Shown: piece by piece, positions 4,808-32,560 of the stretch
Layout of the letters: every line of letters starts with the position of its first letter
Numbering within the stretch: the stretch's first letter is position 1
Source: Saccharopolyspora hordei
Lineage (GTDB): Bacteria; Actinomycetota; Actinomycetes; Mycobacteriales; Pseudonocardiaceae
Reading direction: 5' to 3'
DNA length: 64,000 nucleotides
Assembly (NCBI RefSeq): GCF_013410345.1
Contig: NZ_JACCFJ010000001.1
Location: forward strand, 3,509,001 to 3,573,000
Notes under the pieces: model-generated
The model's input: only the letters and a program-made list of their open reading frames with translations
What the model was told of the DNA's origin: nothing
The model's database searches: none
Program-made: the position numbers and the translations under genes

Positions 4808-6535
4808 ATGGCTCGCCACGCGGACACCGGCGGAGAGCTCCGCACCAGCGACGGACTGCGGCTGGCCGTGCGCGAGCACGGCGACCCGGCGGCGCCGACC
4901 GTGCTGGCGGTGCACGGCTACCCCGACGACCACACGGTCTGGGACGGCGTGGTCGACGCCCTCGCCGACCGCTGCCACGTGGTCACCTACGACGTGCGCG
5001 GCGCGGGAGGTTCCGACGCGCCCCGCCGCACCGAGGCCTACCTGCTGGACCAGCTCGCCGACGACCTCGTCCGGGTCGCCGACCTGGTCAGCCCGGACCG
5101 GCCGGTGCACCTGCTGGCGCACGACTGGGGCGCGCTCCAGGCCTGGCACGCGGTGACCGAACCGCGGCTGGCGCCCCGCTTCGCCTCGCTGACCTCGATC
5201 TCCGGGCCCTGCCTGGACCACGCCGGGCACTGGATGCGCGCGCAGCTGCGACCCCCGACCCCGCGCTCGCTGCGCAAGCTGGTCCAGCAGCTGGTGTTCT
5301 CCGGCTACATCTTCTTCTTCCGGCTGCCGGTGGTGCCGGAGCTGGCGTGGCGGACCGGGCTGGTGAAGCGGCTGATCGCCGTGCTGGAACGCCTGGACCC
5401 GCGCGCCGCCCGGAACCCGACCCGGCCCGCGGTCTCCGACGGCGTGCACGGGCTGCAGCTGTACCGGGCCAACGTCCACCAGCGGCTGAGCCGCCCGGGG
5501 CAGCGGCGCGCGACCCTCCCGGTCCAGGTGCTCGCGCCCACCGGGGACCCGTTCGTCTCCACACCGATGCAGACCGAGATCACCCCGTGGGTGGCCGACC
5601 TGCGGGTGCGCCGGGTGCCCGGCGGGCACTGGCTGCCGCGCAGCCGCCCGGAGCTCGTCGCGCGGTGCGCCGCGGAACTCGTCGAGCACGTCGAGGGCGG
5701 CGCCGAGCCCCGCGCGCTGCGGCGCGCCCGCGTCCGCCCGGGACGCCGCGAGTTCCAGGACCACCTCGTCGTCGTCACCGGGGCCGGCAGCGGGATCGGC
5801 CGGGAGACCGCGGTGGCGTTCGCGGCCGCCGGGGCGCACGTCGTCGTCGCGGACGCGGACCTGTCCGCCGCCGAGGACACCGCCGCGCTGATCACCCGCA
5901 CCGGGGCGGGCGCGTCGCCGTACCAGGTGGACCTCACCGCCGGGGCGGAGGACTTCGCCGCACGGGTGCACGCCGACCTGGGCACCCCGGACGTGGTGGT
6001 CCTCGACTCCGGCACCGGAGCCGCGAGCCGTTTCCTCGACACCCCGGCCGCCGAGTGGGACCGGGTCGTCGACGACACCGTGCGGAGCGTGGCCCACGGC
6101 TGCCGGGAGTTCGCGCGGCAGATGGCCGACCGGGGCGAGGGCGGCCAGATCATCACCCTCGCGTCGTCGGCGGCGTACTCGCCGTCCCCGCGGCGCTCGG
6201 CCCCCAGCACCGCGGGCGCCGCCGTGCTGGCCCTCAGCCAGTCGCTGCGGGTCGAGCTGGCGGCCGACGGCATCGGTGTCACCGCGGTCTGCCCCGGCCC
6301 GGGCGCGACGCGGCGGCCGCGACGCGTCGCGGCCCAGGTGCTGCGCGCCGCCCGCCGCGGCCCCGCGCTCGCACCGGCCACCGCCGGCGCCGCGGTCGGA
6401 CTGGTGCTCTCCCGCCTCAGCCCGGGCCTGCTGCGCGCGGCCGCCCGGGTCCAGTCGGCACCGTGGTGGAGGAGGTCGAGCCGTGTCCCACACCGATCCC
6501 GGCGAGCCGGACCGCGTCGCGCTCCAGGCCCGTGA
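4808..6535 (+). CDS. EphD-like alpha/beta hydrolase fused to a degenerate short-chain dehydrogenase domain
   Basis: The 575-aa protein has two domains, like mycobacterial EphD. Residues 10-300 are an epoxide-hydrolase-type alpha/beta hydrolase: an HGYPDD oxyanion loop, the nucleophile elbow HDWGA (Asp nucleophile) and a late GGHWLP histidine. From residue 320 comes an SDR domain with a good TGAGSGIG cofactor loop. The SDR active-site Tyr-x3-Lys is not there: where it should be the sequence reads APSTAGAAV, so Pro466 and Gly470 replace Tyr and Lys. The SDR half may bind cofactor without reducing. The ATG at 4808 has only a weak ribosome site; an upstream in-frame ATG at 4772 is possible. It overlaps the next gene by 53 nt and heads a three-gene run with two redox or hydrolase genes. 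Confidence 0.85.
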   Translation: MARHADTGGELRTSDGLRLAVREHGDPAAPTVLAVHGYPDDHTVWDGVVDALADRCHVVTYDVRGAGGSDAPRRTEAYLLDQLADDLVRVADLVSPDRPVHLLAHDWGALQAWHAVTEPRLAPRFASLTSISGPCLDHAGHWMRAQLRPPTPRSLRKLVQQLVFSGYIFFFRLPVVPELAWRTGLVKRLIAVLERLDPRAARNPTRPAVSDGVHGLQLYRANVHQRLSRPGQRRATLPVQVLAPTGDPFVSTPMQTEITPWVADLRVRRVPGGHWLPRSRPELVARCAAELVEHVEGGAEPRALRRARVRPGRREFQDHLVVVTGAGSGIGRETAVAFAAAGAHVVVADADLSAAEDTAALITRTGAGASPYQVDLTAGAEDFAARVHADLGTPDVVVLDSGTGAASRFLDTPAAEWDRVVDDTVRSVAHGCREFARQMADRGEGGQIITLASSAAYSPSPRRSAPSTAGAAVLALSQSLRVELAADGIGVTAVCPGPGATRRPRRVAAQVLRAARRGPALAPATAGAAVGLVLSRLSPGLLRAAARVQSAPWWRRSSRVPHRSRRAGPRRAPGP

Positions 6536-24374: not shown

Positions 24375-24438
24375 TCTCACCACACGACGAGCTCGGCGCC
24401 CGGGTCTGCGCCTGACCTCCGCCTGGACGCACGAGCGC

Positions 24439-24477
24439 GGGGTCGCCGTAGTACTCGCCGAAAATCGGGCGGATATG
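24439..24477 (+). repeat. Tn3 left terminal inverted repeat
   Basis: 39 bp starting GGGGTCGCCGTAGTACTC and ending GGGCGGATATG. It differs from the right repeat only at position 6. Confidence 0.95.
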
Positions 24478-24529
24478 CCTCGCTAGGCTGCTGAGCTGGT
24501 GATCGTCGGGTTCTGGCGGGAGGTACTGG

Positions 24530-27500
24530 TTGGCCACGCAGGTGTTCACCGACGCGGAGCTGGAGGGGCTGCGGAGGTTCCCGGAGATCGGCCGGGAGGA
24601 GCTGTTCCGGTTCTTCACGTTGACCCCGGCGGACGTGGCGTTCGTCGATCCCGGCCGTGGTCGGGGGCCGGCGGATCGATTGGGGCTTGCCGTGGCCCTG
24701 TGCTCGTTGCCCTGGCTCGGGTTCGTGCCGGATGACGTGGCCCTCGGCGCCTCGGGCGGCGGTGGCACGGCTGGCGGAGCAACTGGGCGTGGATGCGGAT
24801 GCGATCGGCTCGTATGGGCGGCGTGCGAAGACGCGGACAGATCATCTGCGGCAGGTCGCGCAGTATCTGGGGTGGCGCCCGGCGGGCGCGCTGGAGCTCA
24901 AGGAGCTGGATGAGTTCCTGCTGGCGCGGGCCATGGAGCACGATTCGCCGACGTTGCTGTTCCGGCTGGCCTGCGAGTACCTGATCTCGGCACGGGTGAT
25001 CCGCCCGGGCCCGGTGACGGTGGTCGAGCGAGTCGCGCACGCCCGCGAGGTTGCGCGGCAGGAGACGTTCGACCGGCTGGCCCGCGAGTTCACCGACGAG
25101 CGCCGTGCCGCGCTGGACGGTCTGCTGGTGGTGGACTCGACGATCGGGATGACGCGGCTGCGGTGGCTGTGCACCGGGCCGGTGGAGGCCTCGCCCGCGG
25201 CGGTGAAGACCGAGATCTCCAAACTGGAGTTCCTACGCGCCATGGGCGCGGAAACCCTGGATCTGTCGGTGCTGCCGGCGGAACGGCGGCGGTTCCTGGC
25301 CACGATGGGCCGTCGACTGACTGCCCAGGCATTACAACGTCGCGAGCCGGAGCGTCGGTATCCGGTCCTGGCCACGGTGTTGGCGCAGTCGGCCACGGAG
25401 GTGCTCGACGAGGTGGTGCAACTGTTCGACCAGGCGCTGTCGGCGCGGGAGAGCAAGGCCGGACACACCATGCGGGACGCGCTGGCCGAGCGCGCCCGCT
25501 CCGGGGAAGACCGCCAAGAGCTGTTGGACGACCTACTCGAGGTCATCTTCGATGTGGGGATCAGTGATGACCAGGTCGGCGGGTTGATCCGAGGCGAACG
25601 GATCGGGTGGCAACGGCTACGCGACGCCCAGTCGACTGCGTTGCCTCCGCTGCCGCGGGATCACGGGCATCTGGCCGCGCTGGACGGCTCGTACAGCTAT
25701 CTGCGGCAGTTCACCCCGCAGGTGCTGGAGGCCGTCGGGTTTTCCGGCGGCACCGCCGCGGCCGAGCTACTGCGGGCGGTGGAGATCCTGGCCGAGCTCA
25801 ATGCGACCGGCGCCCGCAAGGTCCCGGCGCACGCGCCGACGGGGTTCGTCCCGACCCGCTGGCGTGGTTACCTCGACGAGGCCGCCAAGACGGGCAGCAG
25901 CACCGCCTACCGGCACTATTGGGAGCTTGCCACGTTGCTGGCCCTGCGGGACGGGCTGCGCACCGGGGATGTATTCGTGCCCGGCTCGCGTCGCTACTCC
26001 GATCCGGCCGCCTACCTGCTCACGCCGGACACGTGGGCGGCGCAGCGGGGCCAGTTCTGCTCTCTGGTCGGCAAACCCGCGGATGCCTCCAAGGCGCTGG
26101 CCGAGGTCGAAGATGAGCTGCACACGGCGCTGGGCGACCTGGAAACCACGCTCGCCGACGGCGACGGCCCGGCGCGCCTGGACGACGACGGCGAGCTGGT
26201 GATCTCTCCGCTGTCGGCCGAAGACATCCCGGCCGAGGCTACGGCGTTGAAGGCCGAGCTGACCGAGATGCTGCCGTTCGCGCCGATCGTGTCCCTGCTC
26301 ATCGAGATGGACCAGCGCACCGGGTTCCTGGACTGCTTCACCCACGCCGGCGGCAAGCAGACCCGCAGCCCGGAGCTCAAGCGCAACCTCATCGCGGTGC
26401 TGCTCGCCCACTCGACCAACCTCGGACTTACACGCATGGCCGATGCCTGCGGCATCTCCTACGACATCCTGGCCTTCACCGCCGAGTGGTACGTACGGGA
26501 AGAGACACTGCGCGCGGCGAACCTGGCGCTGATCGGCTACCACCAGCAGCTGCCGCTGACGGCGATCTTCGGCTCCGGCACCCTGTCCTCCAGTGACGGG
26601 CAGCGGTTCCCCACCCGCGGCAAATCGGTCACCGCCCGAGCCATGAGCAGGTACTTCGCGAACGAGGGCCTGTCGACCTACACGCACGTGACCGACCAGC
26701 ACACCACCTACGGCACGAAGGTCATCGTGGCGACCAAGCGCGAAGCCCACTACGTGCTCGACGACATCCTCGGCAACGCCACCGACATCCCCATCACCGA
26801 GCACGCCACCGACACCCACGGGGTCACCCTGGTCAACTTCGGACTGTTCGACCTACTGGGATTGCAGCTGTCCCCGCGCATCCGCGACCTCGGCAAGATC
26901 ACACTGCACCGGACCGAGGCGAAATCGCAGGTGACCTCAGCGTTCCCGCACGCGGGGCCGCTGTTGACCCGGCGGGCCAACCTCGATCTCATCGCCGCCC
27001 ACTGGGACGATCTACTGCGGCTGGCCGGGTCGCTGAAGTTCGGGCACGCCACCGCCTCGCTGCTGGTCGGCAAGCTCTCCGCCTCCAGCCGGCAAAACTC
27101 CCTGGCCGCAGCGCTCAAGGAGTACGGAGCACTGCGCAGAACGATCTACACCGCCCGCTACCTGTCGGACCCGGCGTACCGGCGCAAGATCTCCCGCCAG
27201 CTCAACAAGGGCGAGTCGCTGCACGCCTTGAAGCGCGACCTGCTCTACGCCCACGAGGGCACCATCCGCGCCCGGCACCTGGAAGCCCAGACCGAGCAGG
27301 CGTGGTGTCTGACGTTGGTGACCAACGCGGTGGTGACCTGGACGACCGAGTACTACAGCCTGGCCGTGGAATCGATGCGCCGCTCCGGACGCCGCATCGA
27401 CGACGAGGTCCTGGCCCACATCTCCCCAGCGCACAGCGAGAACATCAACTTCTTCGGCTCCATCGACGTCGACATCGACGGCGAACTCGCCCAACTCGGC

Positions 27501-27545
27501 CCCACCGGCTACCGGCCACTGCGCATCGGCGACACCCTCTTCTAA
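24530..27545 (+). pseudogene. tnpA: Tn3-family transposase, frameshifted near the N-terminus
   Basis: The full-length product would be about 1,004 aa. The N-terminus starts at a TTG (24530, GGGAGG upstream) with FTDAELEGLRRFPEIGREEL, the DUF4158 domain, as far as FVPDDVA. The family sequence then continues one base out of frame as SAPRAAVARLAEQLGV and runs to the end with the DDE_Tnp_Tn3 domain (FGSGTLSSSDGQRF, ATKREAHYVLDD, HAGGKQTRSPELKRNLIAVLLAHSTN). The shift maps to the CCC run at 24741-24743, where one C is extra. It may be a real inactivation, a recoding site or a sequence error; the perfect terminal repeats and target duplication argue for recent activity. Confidence 0.9.
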
Positions 27546-27619
27546 GCGCCAGACCGCCAAGACACCCGTACGCAAGCGGATCGCCTTGCGAACCAGTAAG
27601 GCATGAATTCCCCGGCAGG

Positions 27620-27658
27620 CATATCCGCCCGGGTTTCGGCGAGCACTACGGCCTCCAG
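27620..27658 (-). repeat. Internal third copy of the Tn3 inverted repeat, decayed
   Basis: Oriented like the right end, it starts CATATCCGCCCG and matches the terminal right repeat at 32 of 39 positions. It lies 75 nt after the transposase stop. This looks like the former right end of a smaller, transposase-only element of about 3.2 kb. Confidence 0.85.
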
Positions 27659-27704
27659 GGAGCGGACGCTTGCTGCTGGAGGGAACCATCGGTGGAGTAA
27701 CCGG

Positions 27705-28868
27705 TTATGTTTCTGCGGAACCGCCACGGCCTTCTTGCTGTTCACGTCGGGTCTGTGTGTCGTGCAGGACCTGGCGGCGTTCGCGTTCGCGGTAGCTGAA
27801 GGCGGCTTCGCGGATCGAGTTTTCACTTTCGAAGCCGGAACCGACGGCGCCGGCAACAGTGGCCGCCGCGGTGACCAGCAGCATGACGACGGCATAGTCA
27901 CCGAATCCGAGTCCGGGCCCGATGTACTGGCCGAACACCTCAGGGGTGAGGACAACACTGGCCGCGATCAGGTTGACGACGTAGAGCGCCCCGTACATGC
28001 ACCCCACTCCGATGATCAGGGTCAGCACCGTGGAAGCGTTGAACAACACCGCCTGCTCGCGTTCGTGCACGGGCCGGCCCATGGTCTGCTCCCACAGCCG
28101 GTGATAGGCGATGAGCCAAGCGACCATGACAGCCACCGACCCGAGCACCGCGGCCAGCAGGCGCAGTGGCCCCATCGTGCTGGCCAGTCGCCAGACCGAC
28201 GTACTGATCAAGTAGAACGCGCTGAACGCGAACGCCCCCACCAGCGGCCCGGTCAATCCGAACACCAGCCGCCACGGACGGTTGTCCCGAACCATGCCGA
28301 TCAACAGCCGCACCATGCCTCGCGAGGCCAGCACGCGCACGTCGACGTCGCGTTGCTCCGGGGTGACCCGCTGGAAGCGGTTGGCCAGCCAGGGCAGTCG
28401 GCGACGCCGGTGCTCCTCGGTCCCCTCCGAGGGAGTACCCCGGCTGCGCATGTCGACGACGAGCTGGGTCACCACACCTCGCACCCGGCGGCGCAACGCC
28501 ATGCCTCCGAATGCCGGTAGCGACACCACCAGGACCCTGCGCTCGTTGCTCATATCGGCCACGATGGGCTGCCGGCCACTACGCAGCGGAAGATCCGTGA
28601 TGCACGCAGCAAGATCCCACCCGTGCTGCCGCATCCGCTCGCTGGCGACGTCCATCATCTCGGTATGGCGGTCGTCACTGGGCGGTAACCGCTCGCGGTG
28701 CACATCCACGCGCCACACGCAGTTGTCCTCCAGCTGCTCGGACAACAGTCTCGGCAAATCATGGGCGAGCTGCTCAGCAATCTGCGCAGGCGCGGCCACC
28801 GGATCAGCCACCACCCCCACAGTCACCGTCTCGATCGAACCGTTCCTCGCATCTTCCGGCATCGTCAT
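27705..28868 (-). CDS. Unknown four-helix membrane protein of transposon cargo
   Basis: The 387-aa protein has a soluble N-terminal half (about 195 residues with VTVGVVADPVAAPAQIAEQL, residues 15-35) and a C-terminal membrane half with four hydrophobic segments (LVFGLTGPLVGAFAFSAFYLI, LLAAVLGSVAVMVAWLIA, LTLIIGVGCMYGALYVVNLI and YAVVMLLVTAAATVAGAVGS). It ends in a charged tail with RERERRQ. I do not recognise a named family. The ATG at 28868 has GGGGAG 7 nt upstream and overlaps the stop of the upstream small frame (ATGA). Codon use is less GC-biased than in the flanking chromosome, in line with transfer. Confidence 0.75.
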   Translation of the reverse strand: MTMPEDARNGSIETVTVGVVADPVAAPAQIAEQLAHDLPRLLSEQLEDNCVWRVDVHRERLPPSDDRHTEMMDVASERMRQHGWDLAACITDLPLRSGRQPIVADMSNERRVLVVSLPAFGGMALRRRVRGVVTQLVVDMRSRGTPSEGTEEHRRRRLPWLANRFQRVTPEQRDVDVRVLASRGMVRLLIGMVRDNRPWRLVFGLTGPLVGAFAFSAFYLISTSVWRLASTMGPLRLLAAVLGSVAVMVAWLIAYHRLWEQTMGRPVHEREQAVLFNASTVLTLIIGVGCMYGALYVVNLIAASVVLTPEVFGQYIGPGLGFGDYAVVMLLVTAAATVAGAVGSGFESENSIREAAFSYRERERRQVLHDTQTRREQQEGRGGSAET

Positions 28869-29242
28869 CGCAGCACTCCCCACCGTCGGTGACGCCCCAC
28901 GACTACCCACCACAGCCCTATCCAACGACCCACGTAGCTCGAGCCCGCACCATCTCCGCAAACCATCGGTATGCGTACGCGGTGCCTCCGGCGGCGAGGA
29001 GGATTGGCCTCGATCAGCCGGGCGCGCCAGACCGGCGGGAAGAACCGGGCCAGGGCCGCGGCCAAGGTCTCGTCCAGCAGGTGGATCAGGCTGGGCCAGT
29101 CGGCCTGGTGGTAGTCACACGCCGCGCGGATCTGCCCACCGGCGCGGGGCAGGGAGGCGGCGGCGTGGGCTCCGTGCACTGTGCGGTCAGGGCAGTGCGG
29201 AGAGGGGCATCGACCGAACCCGTGTACGGATTCCAGCACCAT
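28865..29242 (-). CDS. Possible small cargo protein, 125 aa
   Basis: A frame from an ATG at 29242 ends CGATGA so that its stop overlaps the next gene's ATG. The middle looks protein-like (CDYHQADWPSLIHLLDETLAAALARFFPPVWRARL) and two cysteines near the start (GRCPSPHC) could bind metal; the last 30 residues are basic and tryptophan-rich. No ribosome site is clear. An opposing frame at 29241-29453 exists. I cannot name a family. Confidence 0.35.
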   Translation of the reverse strand: MVLESVHGFGRCPSPHCPDRTVHGAHAAASLPRAGGQIRAACDYHQADWPSLIHLLDETLAAALARFFPPVWRARLIEANPPRRRRHRVRIPMVCGDGAGSSYVGRWIGLWWVVVGRHRRWGVLR

Positions 29243-29438
29243 GCGGCAGCACACCAACACCAAGCTCGCCGAGGTCGCCGCCGCGTTCGTGGCCCGGGTC
29301 CGTGACCGCGGTCCCGCCGGCCCGCGCAGACTGCCGGGTGGTCTCGGCGCTGCCGGGCAGGGGGTGAGCACCGTGGCCCGGTGCGGCCACCGCTGGCACC
29401 GCCCGCCGATCCGCGCTGACCGCCCACTCGCCGGCTGG

Positions 29439-29463
29439 TTTGACCCGGCCTGACCCGGGCAAC
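29439..29463 (+). promoter_or_regulatory. Stress-sigma (SigB/SigF-type) promoter-like sequence before the PfpI gene
   Basis: GTTT, 15 bases, GGGCAA. This resembles the actinobacterial stress sigma consensus GTTT-N14-16-GGGTAT. It sits 40 nt upstream of the cargo operon start. The rest of 29243-29438 shows no convincing gene. Confidence 0.4.
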
Positions 29464-29502
29464 CCTATGGTTCTCGCCACACTATGAGGAGGCGCGATTC
29501 CC

Positions 29503-30072
29503 ATGGCAGATGAGCTGCGCGGCCGGCGGGTCGCGATCCTGGCCACCGACGGTGTCGAGCAGGTCGAACTCACCCAGCCCCGCCAGGCGGTGGAGCAGGC
29601 CGGGGCGCAGGTGACGCTGCTGTCGATCCACACCGGACAGATTCAGTCGATGAACGCCGACATCGACAAAGGCGACACCTTCACCGTCGACCAGGTGGTC
29701 TCCGACGTTTCCGGCGACGACTTCGACGCTCTGATCCTGCCCGGCGGGACGGTCAACCCCGACGGGCTGCGGGTCAACTCCGACGCGGTGGGTTTCGTGC
29801 GGGAGTTCGTGGGCTCCGGTAAGCCGGTCGGCTCGCTGTGTCACGGGCCGTGGACGTTGGTCGAGGCCGACGTGGTCCGGGGCCGCACGTTGACCTCGTT
29901 CCCCAGCATCCGCACCGACATCCGCAACGCCGGCGGCAACGTCGTCGACCAGGAAGTCGTCACCGACCAGGGCCTGGTCACCAGCCGCGACCCCGACGAC
30001 CTGCCCGCGTTCTGCTCCAAGATCGTCGAGGAGTTCGCCGAAGGCCGCCACCGGGCCCCCACCCAGGCCTGA
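29503..30072 (+). CDS. DJ-1/PfpI-family protein
   Basis: The 189-aa protein has the class I glutamine amidotransferase-like fold of PfpI: RRVAILATDGVEQVELTQPR at the start, a conserved Glu (VEQVEL), LILPGG near residue 78, and the nucleophile in GSLCHGPW (Cys113-His114). Members act as protein or glyoxal deglycases, chaperones or proteases; which one applies here cannot be read. A GGAGG lies 10 nt before the ATG. First gene of a plus-strand cargo operon, 29 nt before the formaldehyde dehydrogenase, so a role in aldehyde or glycation stress is plausible. Confidence 0.9.
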   Translation: MADELRGRRVAILATDGVEQVELTQPRQAVEQAGAQVTLLSIHTGQIQSMNADIDKGDTFTVDQVVSDVSGDDFDALILPGGTVNPDGLRVNSDAVGFVREFVGSGKPVGSLCHGPWTLVEADVVRGRTLTSFPSIRTDIRNAGGNVVDQEVVTDQGLVTSRDPDDLPAFCSKIVEEFAEGRHRAPTQA

Positions 30073-30101
30073 ATCGAACCCATCCGCCAGAGGAGAAGAA
30101 C

Positions 30102-31250
30102 ATGAAGGCACTGGTCTACAACGGCCCCCACGACGTCAGCGTCTCCGACGTTCCCGACGCGCGTATCGAGCGGCCCAACGACGTCCTGGTGCGGATCACC
30201 GCGACCAACATCTGCGGGTCGGACCTGCACATGTACGAAGGGCGCACCGACTTCGAGCAGGGCCGCATCTTCGGCCACGAAAACGTCGGCGAGGTCATCG
30301 AGGTCGGCGACGGAGTCGACAAGGTCGCGGTGGGGGACATGGTCTCGGCGCCGTTCAACGTCTCCTGCGGACACTGCCAGAACTGCGAGCACGGACTGAC
30401 CAACTACTGCCTGAGCGCCAACGTGGAGGGTATGGCCGGCGGCGCGTACGGGTTCGCCGACATGGGCGGCTGGGCCGGCGGCCAGGCCGAGTACCTGCGC
30501 ATCCCCTGGGGTGACTTCCAGTGCCTGCGCCTGCCCGAGGACGCGGCCGACAAGCAGAACGACTACGCGATGCTCTCCGACATCTTCCCCACCGGCTGGC
30601 ACGCCGTGGAGATGTCGGGCCTGAAGCCCGGCGAGACCATCGTCATCTACGGCGGCGGCCCGGTCGGGTTGATGGCCGCCCTCTCCGCGAGCGTCAAGGG
30701 CGCCGCGAAGGTGATGGTCGTCGACCGCCACCCCGACCGGCTGCGCCTGGCCGAGCAGATCGGCGCGATCGCGATCGACGACTCCAAGGTCGACCCGGTC
30801 GAGCAGGTCACCGAGCACACCAAGGGGGTCGGCGCCGACCGCGGCGCGGAGTGCGTCGGCTACCAGGCCCACGACCCGCAAGGCAACGAGGACAACGCCG
30901 ACACCCTGAACAAGCTGGTCGCCTCCGTGCGGTTCACCGGCGGGATCGGCACCGTCGGGGTGTTCATCCCGCAGGACCCCGGTGGCCCGGATGAGCTGTC
31001 CCAGCAGGGCAAGGCCCGCTTCGACTTCGGCAACTTCTGGTTCAAGGGCCAGCAGATGGGCTGCGGCCAGGTCCCGGTCAAGCGCTACAACCGCCACCTG
31101 CGCAACCTCATCGCCGAAGACAAGGTCACCCCCTCCTGGATCGTGTCCCACAACCTGCCCCTCAAGCAGGCCCCGGACGCCTACAAGCATTTCGACGCCC
31201 GCGAAGACGGCTGGACCAAGGTCGTGCTCAACCCCGGTCAGGTCGGCTGA
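30102..31250 (+). CDS. Glutathione-independent formaldehyde dehydrogenase-like zinc alcohol dehydrogenase
   Basis: The 382-aa medium-chain dehydrogenase has the catalytic zinc site (Cys38 in NICGSDLHMYEG, His59-Glu60 in FGHENVGE), the structural zinc cysteines 89, 92, 95 and 103 (CGHCQNCEHGLTNYC), and the Rossmann motif IYGGGPVGLMA. The internal insert with AYGFADMGGWAGGQAEYLR and the long C-terminal half match Pseudomonas-type FdhA, which oxidises formaldehyde with bound NAD. A strong AGAGGAGAAG precedes the ATG. It is intact, unlike the transposase and the monooxygenase next to it. Confidence 0.92.
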   Translation: MKALVYNGPHDVSVSDVPDARIERPNDVLVRITATNICGSDLHMYEGRTDFEQGRIFGHENVGEVIEVGDGVDKVAVGDMVSAPFNVSCGHCQNCEHGLTNYCLSANVEGMAGGAYGFADMGGWAGGQAEYLRIPWGDFQCLRLPEDAADKQNDYAMLSDIFPTGWHAVEMSGLKPGETIVIYGGGPVGLMAALSASVKGAAKVMVVDRHPDRLRLAEQIGAIAIDDSKVDPVEQVTEHTKGVGADRGAECVGYQAHDPQGNEDNADTLNKLVASVRFTGGIGTVGVFIPQDPGGPDELSQQGKARFDFGNFWFKGQQMGCGQVPVKRYNRHLRNLIAEDKVTPSWIVSHNLPLKQAPDAYKHFDAREDGWTKVVLNPGQVG

Positions 31251-31307
31251 CTTGTCCCTCGCGCGGCTCTGATCTGAACAGCACCCGTTTGAGTAGGAGG
31301 CCAGAGC

Positions 31308-31601
31308 ATGGCAGAACCAGTGACCGTCGGGCTCCTCGTCCGGATCGAGGCGCTACCCGGACGAGAAGGCGACGTCGAGAACTTCCTGCAGCAGGGGCTC
31401 GGCATCGTGGAGCAGGAGCCGGGCACGGTGCGGTGGTTCGCCCTCCGCTTCGGGCCCTCGTCCTTCGGGATCTACGACGCCTTTCCCGACGACTCCGGTC
31501 GCCAGGCCCACCTCTCGGGCCAGGTCGCCTCGCGGAGAACACCGGGGTCTTGTTCGCCCAGTCGACCATCAAACCCGTGGACGTGATCGCCGAGAAACCC
31601 C
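31308..31601 (+). pseudogene. Antibiotic biosynthesis monooxygenase-like protein, frameshifted
   Basis: The first 75 residues (VTVGLLVRIEALPGREGDVENFL to FPDDSGRQAHLSGQVA) match small ABM-fold monooxygenases or heme-degrading proteins. The usual ending LAENTGVLFAQ and PVDVIAEKP is encoded in the next frame from about 31527. The native frame breaks near 31525-31530 by a net one-base loss, so the product would end in an unrelated tail at 31586. A strong AGTAGGAGG precedes the ATG. It is the third cargo gene after the PfpI protein and the dehydrogenase. Confidence 0.8.
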
Positions 31602-31655
31602 GATCTGATCACCGATCGGCGGCCCGGGATGACAGGTGTCCGATGACCGAACCCC

Positions 31656-31791
31656 CACTGAGACAACACCGCCCGGCCGACACCGACGCGAGACGAAGCC
31701 GCGAGCTGGCGTTCCGCTGACCAGGGTTGTCTCAGATACCTGGTACGGTGAAACTCTCACTGAGGGGTGGCTAACCGTTACACTGCCGATC
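31656..31791 (+). promoter_or_regulatory. Candidate resolution (res) site of the transposon
   Basis: The gap before the resolvase gene contains CTGAGACAAC (31658-31667) and its exact complement GTTGTCTCAG (31726-31735), followed by a related CACTGAGGGG at 31759. Inverted arms in several subsites just upstream of tnpR are the normal res layout of Tn3 elements. Exact subsites are inferred. Confidence 0.55.
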
Positions 31792-32379
31792 ATGTCCGGC
31801 ACCCTGGTTGGCTACGCCCGCTGCTCCACCGACGAGCAAGACCTCACCGCCCAACGCCAGCGCCTGGCCGAACTCGGCATCGCAGACGACCAGATCTATC
31901 TCGACCACGGACTCACCGGCACCAAGAGAACGCGGCCCGGCCTCGATCAGGCGCTGGCCGCCGTCCGAACTGGCGACACCCTCGTGGTGCCCAAGCTCGA
32001 TCGACTGGCCCGGTCGGTGCCGGACGCCCGCGCCATCGGCGACGACCTCGCCGAGCGCGGCGTCGCGCTCTCGCTCGGCGGACAGGTCTACGACCCGACC
32101 GACCCCATGGGCAAAATGTTCTTCAACATCCTGGCCACCTTCGCCGAATTCGAAGTCGACCTCCTACGCATGCGCACCCGCGAAGGCATGGCCGTGGCGA
32201 AGGCGAAGGGAAAGCTTCGCGGCAAGCAACCCAAGCTCTCGCCGAAGCAGCAGACCGAACTGAGGCGCATGCACGACAGTGGCGACTACACGATCACCGA
32301 CCTCACCGAGCTGTTCTCCGTCTCCCGGCCGACCGTCTACCGCACACTCCAGCGCGGCCAGCCGTCCCAGGCGGAGTGA
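31792..32379 (+). CDS. tnpR: Serine resolvase (TnpR/Hin-type recombinase)
   Basis: This 195-aa serine recombinase has the catalytic Ser in YARCSTDEQDL (Ser12) and the conserved KLDRLARS arginine cluster near residue 70. It continues with FNILATFAEFEVDL and RTREGMAVAKAKG, and ends in a helix-turn-helix (YTITDLTELFSVSRPTVYRTL, residues 164-184). It would resolve transposition cointegrates at the adjacent res site. Intact; it ends 28 nt before the right terminal repeat. Confidence 0.95.
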   Translation: MSGTLVGYARCSTDEQDLTAQRQRLAELGIADDQIYLDHGLTGTKRTRPGLDQALAAVRTGDTLVVPKLDRLARSVPDARAIGDDLAERGVALSLGGQVYDPTDPMGKMFFNILATFAEFEVDLLRMRTREGMAVAKAKGKLRGKQPKLSPKQQTELRRMHDSGDYTITDLTELFSVSRPTVYRTLQRGQPSQAE

Positions 32380-32407
32380 AGCCATGCCCGATCAGCAGCC
32401 CAGACCT

Positions 32408-32446
32408 CATATCCGCCCGATTTTCGGCGAGTACTACGGCTACCCC
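32408..32446 (-). repeat. Tn3 right terminal inverted repeat
   Basis: 39 bp, starting CATATCCGCCCGATTTTC and ending CTACCCC, the complement of the left end except one base. AGCGC target copy follows. Confidence 0.95.
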
Positions 32447-32560
32447 AGCGCGGCGGCCGCTCGGGCGTCCAGGCGGGAGCGGTGGTCACAGTGGACGGCG
32501 GAGGTCCGGAGAGAGTTCGGGGGAGCGCGTCGGTGACGCCGCCGCCGGGACCTCGGCGCG

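Follow-up and report, generated by a model that had tools for sequence, protein, structure and literature searches.

A mosaic Tn3-family transposon of Saccharopolyspora hordei with a probable aldehyde- and stress-protection cassette

The 64,000-nucleotide stretch of Saccharopolyspora hordei DNA analyzed here (the window, at its full length) contains, between two convergent chromosomal genes, a Tn3-family transposon that measures 8,008 bp from its left to its right terminal inverted repeat (IRL and IRR). Taking all comparisons together, we think it quite probable that this transposon was built stepwise, that it carries a cassette able to change carriers, composed of a DJ-1/PfpI gene (PfpI) and a gene of the formaldehyde-dehydrogenase kind (Fdh), that the cassette serves in protection from aldehydes under general stress, and that the window copy is probably immobile. 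The features are given below by their positions in the window; G and L numbers are our handles for genomes and loci, and aa stands for amino acids.

24434-24438, no strand: left target duplication, AGCGC
24439-24477, no strand: IRL, reading GGGGTCGCC..., identical to IRR at 38 of 39 positions
24530-27545, forward strand: tnpA, Tn3-family transposase gene, frameshifted, its DUF4158 domain split over two open reading frames (ORFs)
27620-27658, forward strand: IRmid, internal copy of the end in the orientation of IRR, its inner 33 bp matching at 30 of 33 positions
27705-28868, reverse strand: gene of a 387-aa protein of unknown family with probable C-terminal membrane helices, 98% identical in Saccharopolyspora flava
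29394-29396, no strand: left boundary of the PfpI-Fdh cassette, where homology with G072 and G040 starts
29438-29461, forward strand: predicted SigB-type promoter motif, GTTT-N15-GGGCA, whose first base lies 65 bp upstream of the start of PfpI
29503-30072, forward strand: DJ-1/PfpI gene, 189 aa, intact (PF01965, E 2.3e-50; PDB 2vrn, E 3.5e-63)
30102-31250, forward strand: Fdh, zinc alcohol dehydrogenase of the glutathione-independent formaldehyde-dehydrogenase kind, 382 aa, intact
31308-31586, forward strand: broken ABM-like ORF, a chimera whose 5' part resembles one S. flava copy and whose 3' part resembles a second, joined near 31527
31649-31791, forward strand: candidate res, with inverted CTGAGACA/TGTCTCAG boxes and a homology break
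31792-32379, forward strand: tnpR, small serine resolvase, 195 aa, intact (PF00239, E 3.1e-40; PF02796)
32408-32446, no strand: IRR, identical to IRL at 38 of 39 positions
32447-32451, no strand: right target duplication, AGCGC

Both terminal repeats are 39 bp long and start with GGGG. With up to 13 mismatches, only three sites resembling the 39-bp end occur on the two strands of the 64 kb, so that the pairing of IRL and IRR is not due to chance, and with up to 3 mismatches IRL and IRR are the only matches in the 5.78-Mb host genome. Duplications of 5 bp also flank the elements of four relatives (AAGCA, TGCTC, CGTAA and TGATC), whereas none was detected in the fifth relative tried, G295. A previous interpretation made from the letters alone (the sequence-only reading) had proposed a Tn3 transposon with near-perfect 39-bp ends, an AGCGC target duplication, a resolvase and stress- or aldehyde-type cargo including a PfpI-like protein. 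The ends, the duplication, tnpA, the full-length serine resolvase TnpR and the cargo genes all support that proposal, and the product of the intact PfpI gene scores above the cut-off of the DJ-1/PfpI subfamily model TIGR01382 (163.7 bits; cut-off, 139.05).

The left flank was searched for in 22 genomes of the genus, including the host, and the loci were fetched from the 21 others, which belong to species other than that of the window. In G269, G275 and G248, a TetR-type gene adjoins a luciferase-like monooxygenase gene across a short, insert-free spacer. Parts of the right flank are found beside the left flank at two of the 21 loci (L049 and L052), and the edge of the right flank is located approximately 1.4 kb from the left flank at two others (L044 and L051); in 14 of the 21, the right flank was not seen within up to 1.5 kb beyond the left flank. 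No sequence of the element was detected in any of the 21 stretches up to 1.5 kb past the left flank. The sequence-only reading had held that finding the cargo at this locus without the ends, in homologous strains, would mark it as native; no such arrangement was present in these 21 relatives of other species. The element is an insertion at a locus that is empty in three relatives of the genus. A preference for hairpins at the target was considered, as the rejoined flanks (24419-24438 and 32452-32476) gave -38.9 kcal/mol for one 45-mer, while the most stable spacer 45-mer in four genus relatives reached only -13.5 to -21.8. It was rejected, since the 45-mer centered on the duplication gave -24.0, with 3.4% of own-flank 45-mers equal to or better than it, and nothing comparable appeared at four other duplicated insertions, where 17 to 81% of flank 45-mers were equal or better.

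The nearest full relative is Saccharopolyspora flava DSM 44771 (G063), of the same genus in the family Pseudonocardiaceae. Its version of the element is 9,552 bp long, has the duplication AAGCA, an open tnpA and other surroundings, and the S. flava copy of the window's left flank is located approximately 21 kb away from it on the same contig. Over the aligned columns, identity between the two elements is 96.9%, compared with 83% for the chromosomal left flank, which points to horizontal transfer. The comparison lends good support to the view that the element moves as a unit with its cargo, and thus to the mobility of the cargo. Synonymous divergence (dS) between the window and S. flava is not uniform, with values of 0.062 for both tnpA and tnpR, 0.027 for the membrane-protein gene, 0.13 for PfpI and 0.165 for Fdh, and with a dS of 0.086 the PfpI gene of G680 is closer to that of the window than the S. 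flava gene is. Within tnpA, 1,250 bp are 100% identical to S. flava and are flanked by patches of 92 to 96% identity. These dS differences and identity patches indicate a mosaic history. Ratios of nonsynonymous to synonymous divergence (dN/dS) of PfpI and Fdh range from 0.17 to 0.29 over the comparisons with S. flava, G072, G040 and G680, in line with purifying selection.

We found matches to the cassette at E 1e-250 or better at 39 places in 36 of 390 genomes of the family. All 39 neighborhoods were fetched and examined, some of them cut by contig ends, and L091 and L092 were fetched and mapped in addition to the 39. In G680, the cassette belongs to a complete 11,704-bp element with the same type of ends and the duplication TGCTC, whose TnpA, TnpR and PfpI proteins are 82%, 38% and 97% identical to those of the window, respectively. 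In G040, it is part of a complete 6,846-bp element with different ends and the duplication TGATC, and the corresponding identities are 28.5%, 90% and 95%. In G072, it is located beside a third type of tnpA (56%). Among the eight copies that reach 90% DNA identity or more, those of the window and S. flava being counted here, seven have Tn3 transposase sequence nearby, as opposed to none of the 31 others; the Fisher value of 5e-7 is only indicative because the copies are related and the 90% split was chosen by us. As for the G072 locus itself (L026:6590-18720), the cassette there lies between two copies of the third tnpA type, the first of which is truncated; each follows an end reading ...CAACGGTTAGCTC, and LacI-, DHDPS- and Nramp-type genes and a resolvase come next.

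Some observations on the cassette count against our overall reading. The homology on the left runs about 50 bp further in G680, G137 and G018, and about 150 bp further in G265. In G137, the cassette is accompanied only by remnants of a tnpA of the window's type, the tnpA match of G018 is weak and limited to a 148-aa fragment (26%), and no tnpA was found in the 20 kb fetched around the G265 copy, one of the eight of high identity. For the 31 others, the fetched stretch is in some cases short, the shortest having 3,016 bases. G212 harbors a transposase-free cluster with the gene order PfpI-Fdh-ABM-like-membrane gene, the proteins of which are 63, 86, 84 and 39% identical to those of the window. 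Such transposase-free clusters with the gene order of the cassette suggest that it is of chromosomal origin. When 72,556 plasmid records were searched with the cassette, 17 matched, all at 60 to 80% identity, and 80% of the query was covered by none of them.

The ends are also widespread. The sequence-only reading had suggested looking for the 39-bp end in other actinobacterial genomes, and it occurs in 26 of the 390 family genomes, representing 16 of 46 genera, while a reversed control pattern gave 0 matches. A scan of another collection (seven stretches in all) added Streptomyces, Actinomadura and a Micrococcaceae assembly. A Rhodococcus WAY2 plasmid carries a related tnpA (79% protein identity) with merA/merB beside it, ends of its own that match at 34 of 38 positions and the duplication TACCT. 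At L169 (G010:C71, 3449-4736), 1.3 kb lie between near-identical opposed ends and contain only a 5' piece of tnpA, in the manner of a miniature element; its flanks show no matching duplication.

On the right side of the cassette, the homology with the resolvase modules of Saccharomonospora sp. CUA-673 (G164) and the near-identical G013 starts at 31649, at the candidate res site. Exchange of toxin-antitoxin modules at res has been described for Tn3 transposons (PMC7157771). The PfpI-Fdh module with its own SigB-type motif occurs in transposons whose tnpA genes differ, and recombination at res or close to it is the most likely way in which it was exchanged, although the res candidate of the window was recognized only by its inverted boxes and the homology breaks. 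More tentatively, the cassette may be a semi-independent passenger in the Pseudonocardiaceae: an aldehyde-defence module under general-stress control that brings its own SigB-type promoter and that recombination at res and at a conserved left boundary would transfer between Tn3 transposons, even where the transposases share as little as 28% identity, in much the same manner as drug-resistance modules of other systems. A module of res, tnpR and IRR with 97.4% identity to that of the window was observed at one locus of G164 and at two of G013, its right flank being the same in all three (L031:12596-13393, L032:9764-10561 and L033:9657-10454); no left end of the window's type was found in the stretches fetched around these three modules.

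The element had also been described as complete by the sequence-only reading, and this proved incorrect, as tnpA is frameshifted near 24741 and, at the broken ABM-like gene, 1,472 bp of the S. flava element are missing. The first 70 or so codons of tnpA are in the frame of 24530, and the remainder is a 962-aa ORF from 24657 in another frame; compared with the S. flava gene, which is open, the window carries an additional base near 24741. The gene product matches DDE_Tnp_Tn3 (PF01526; 452.9 bits, E 1.1e-135) and NF033527 (791.9 bits; cut-off, 500), but the open transposase frame expected of an autonomous element is absent from the window. Using the open S. flava protein as a query, we found no other copy of the transposase in the host genome at E 0.001, only two out-of-frame pieces. 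With its tnpA out of frame and no second copy of the gene elsewhere in the host, the element of the window is probably unable to move on its own, unless it is helped from outside. The possibility that the frameshift is a sequencing error speaks against this view. A programmed frameshift was rejected, as tnpA is a single open frame of 1,014 to 1,017 codons in S. flava, G680, G246 and G295.

The S. flava element has two ABM-like copies that are 78% identical over approximately 230 bp; the second copy is decayed, and a second membrane-protein gene, itself broken, separates the two. Recombination between these repeats would be the simplest cause of the 1,472-bp gap. Pfam and NCBIfam gave no match to the window ORF (to E 0.001 and E 0.01, respectively) or to an S. 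flava copy; for the intact S. flava copy there is a match to PDB 2pd1 (E 1.5e-27), the structure of a hypothetical protein. The ABM protein announced by the sequence-only reading is therefore not upheld: the family models give no match, 2pd1 is all that the S. flava copy matches, and the window ORF is broken. The frameshifted tnpA, the missing 1,472 bp and the chimeric ABM-like ORF might be taken to mean that the window copy is a decaying fossil which is losing cargo and tnpA alike and has no present function. We consider this unlikely, given that PfpI, Fdh and tnpR are full length and that dN/dS is at or below 0.3.

A trace of the stepwise construction of the element may be preserved in IRmid, which is absent from the sequence-only reading and is located about 75 bp behind tnpA. 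It has lost the outer GGGGT box in both the window and S. flava, a box that TnpA contacts in the Tn4430 structure (PMC9579193). At the same junction, G173 has a counterpart end that keeps a GGGG tip (L030:7337-7375), and in G035 (L036) the sequence to the right of the junction is present without an end beside it. We read IRmid as the eroded fossil end of an older, smaller unit that contained only tnpA and lay beside the membrane-protein gene. It is very improbable that IRmid is instead a second working end, making both tnpA alone (IRL to IRmid, approximately 3.2 kb) and the whole element mobile: its 30 matches over the 33 inner positions and the GGGG-tipped counterpart in G173 would fit, but the GGGGT box is gone in both elements, and in each of the two insertions found (window and S. 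flava) it is the outer ends that were used, with duplications beside them.

With IRmid taken as a fossil, the comparisons suggest the following sequence of events. A small unit composed of IRL, tnpA and an end would have landed beside the gene of the 387-aa membrane protein, and a second end with res-tnpR, together with the PfpI-Fdh-(ABM-like) cassette, would then have been enclosed. Erosion of the inner end may have left only the outer ends still matched. Tn3-family elements move by TnpA-driven replicative transposition followed by TnpR resolution, and the element presumably transposed in the same way.

The predicted promoter motif is found upstream of the PfpI gene in all mobile copies, in the form GTTT-N14-17-GGG(C/T)A at 64 to 72 bp (8/8), and it is missing from the 150 bp before the gene in the native copies examined (10/10). 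These counts refer to copies with a located PfpI start, the 8 mobile ones and 10 of the 31 native-type loci. The pattern matches once in the 64 kb, both strands considered. In its boxes and spacing the motif fits SigB-type promoters, for which a consensus is given for Streptomyces coelicolor (PMC8346170). A caveat is that we counted the motif only after having noticed it, and that the eight copies are homologous.

As for the function of the cassette, the best-ranking solved structures for Fdh, first among 192, are 4jlw, 1kol and 2dph, which are formaldehyde dehydrogenases and a dismutase. By homology, Fdh would oxidize or dismutate an aldehyde, and PfpI, the closest structure of which, 2vrn, we take to be a Deinococcus protein, would deal with aldehyde- or stress-damaged proteins; it misses the stricter equivalog NF040823. 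Under general stress, the most likely role of the cassette is to protect the cell that carries it from formaldehyde or another reactive aldehyde. This is the best reading in view of the homologies of PfpI and Fdh, their dN/dS, the SigB-type motif and the pairing of similar genes in Bacillus subtilis (see below). Several facts weigh against it. At 323.1 bits, Fdh is well below the TIGR02819 equivalog cut-off of 636.95, so that the formaldehyde dehydrogenase named by the sequence-only reading is supported by homology and by the best structures but not by this model. The host holds another PfpI gene, 72% identical, as well as other Fdh-like genes, 53% (with one stop inside) and 39% identical. Because the host already has such genes, the cargo would add to an aldehyde function rather than found it.

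A catabolic role is a rather unlikely alternative, according to which Fdh, the ABM-like protein and, in relatives, HbpS-like and amidohydrolase proteins would break down a substrate releasing C1 or aromatic compounds, with formaldehyde as one intermediate. The G680 cassette does include HbpS-like and Amidohydro_2 genes, G040 has an HbpS-like gene, and related Tn3 elements carry other cargo, such as the merA/merB genes of Rhodococcus WAY2. Nevertheless, the window and S. flava leave no room for HbpS-like or amidohydrolase genes between Fdh and the ABM-like gene, the stress-type PfpI is kept in all eight high-identity copies, and the SigB-type motif counts against catabolism.

Regarding the remaining sequences, the 387-aa protein has no Pfam or NCBIfam match, and its structural model is not confident (mean pLDDT, 40.9). 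Its family recurs in 11 of 31 native-type Fdh loci as paralogues of approximately 35 to 46% identity. A 168-aa ORF on the reverse strand (28865-29371) was dropped as probably spurious, with no family match and 73% protein identity to S. flava; the underlying DNA is 97.6% identical to S. flava over 29000-29249 and 93.2% over 29250-29499. Elsewhere in the window, ARAGORN predicted a tRNA with a four-base anticodon (5140-5227, reverse strand) that is probably a false positive, as Rfam showed no tRNA in the window.

Passenger genes of Tn3 elements are known mainly for resistance to drugs and metals. The element shares with the Tn3 family a DDE transposase, 39-bp ends starting with GGGGT, 5-bp duplications, a serine resolvase and passenger genes, as these traits are described in PMC7157771 and PMC9579193, and Tn4430 TnpA was the only solved relative found for the window tnpA. 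It differs by its eroded third end, by the position of tnpR next to IRR with the cargo between tnpR and tnpA, and by the frameshift; the resolvase that PMC7157771 gives for Tn4430 is a tyrosine enzyme, unlike that of the window. The toxin-antitoxin exchange at res in the same source shares with our proposal the swapping of modules between Tn3 transposons and the homology breaks at res, but the module of the window is a metabolic or stress cassette and its res is a candidate.

The view of the sequence-only reading that aldehyde cargo is unusual is fair, with the qualification that a precedent exists. In Aeromonas salmonicida, pAsaXII has formaldehyde detoxification genes flanked by Tn3-type inverted repeats, and the formaldehyde minimal inhibitory concentration reported for the pAsaXII strain is 0.01% versus 0.0025% in two controls (PMC5736529). 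As described there, that operon is glutathione dependent and has no transposase, whereas the window has a dehydrogenase of the thiol-independent type with PfpI, in an actinobacterial setting, with tnpA and tnpR, and on several transposons. R830b and similar plasmids likewise have formaldehyde genes on mobile DNA, next to a resolvase in R830b, and the enzymes reported for them are glutathione dependent and proteobacterial, unlike Fdh (PMC4510254, PMC4613276). In the B. subtilis adhA-yraA pair, a DJ-1/PfpI gene is coupled with a formaldehyde-inducible dehydrogenase, and YycR of the same species is of the thiol-independent type, like Fdh; the account in PMC11577753 presents adhA-yraA as an ordinary operon regulated by the MerR-type YraB, and its passages on the pair mention no mobile element. 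The Listeria stress survival islet SSI-2 is likewise an acquired insert for stress that contains a PfpI gene, but it consists of two genes, and its authors state that they found no transposase or other mobility factor (PMC5541211).

The literature matches listed included no report of a PfpI-Fdh cassette or of actinobacterial Tn3 elements with formaldehyde genes as cargo. With pAsaXII, a set of formaldehyde genes enclosed by Tn3-type ends was already on record; what is new is the type of enzyme, the group of hosts, the presence of the cassette on different transposons and the predicted promoter motif. The elements of the window, S. flava, G680, G040, G173 and G035 form a natural series from which the steps that built such a transposon can be followed. 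If our reading is correct, the repeated loading of an aldehyde cassette onto Tn3 elements suggests that ordinary metabolic stress is selected on the same vehicles as resistance to drugs and metals.

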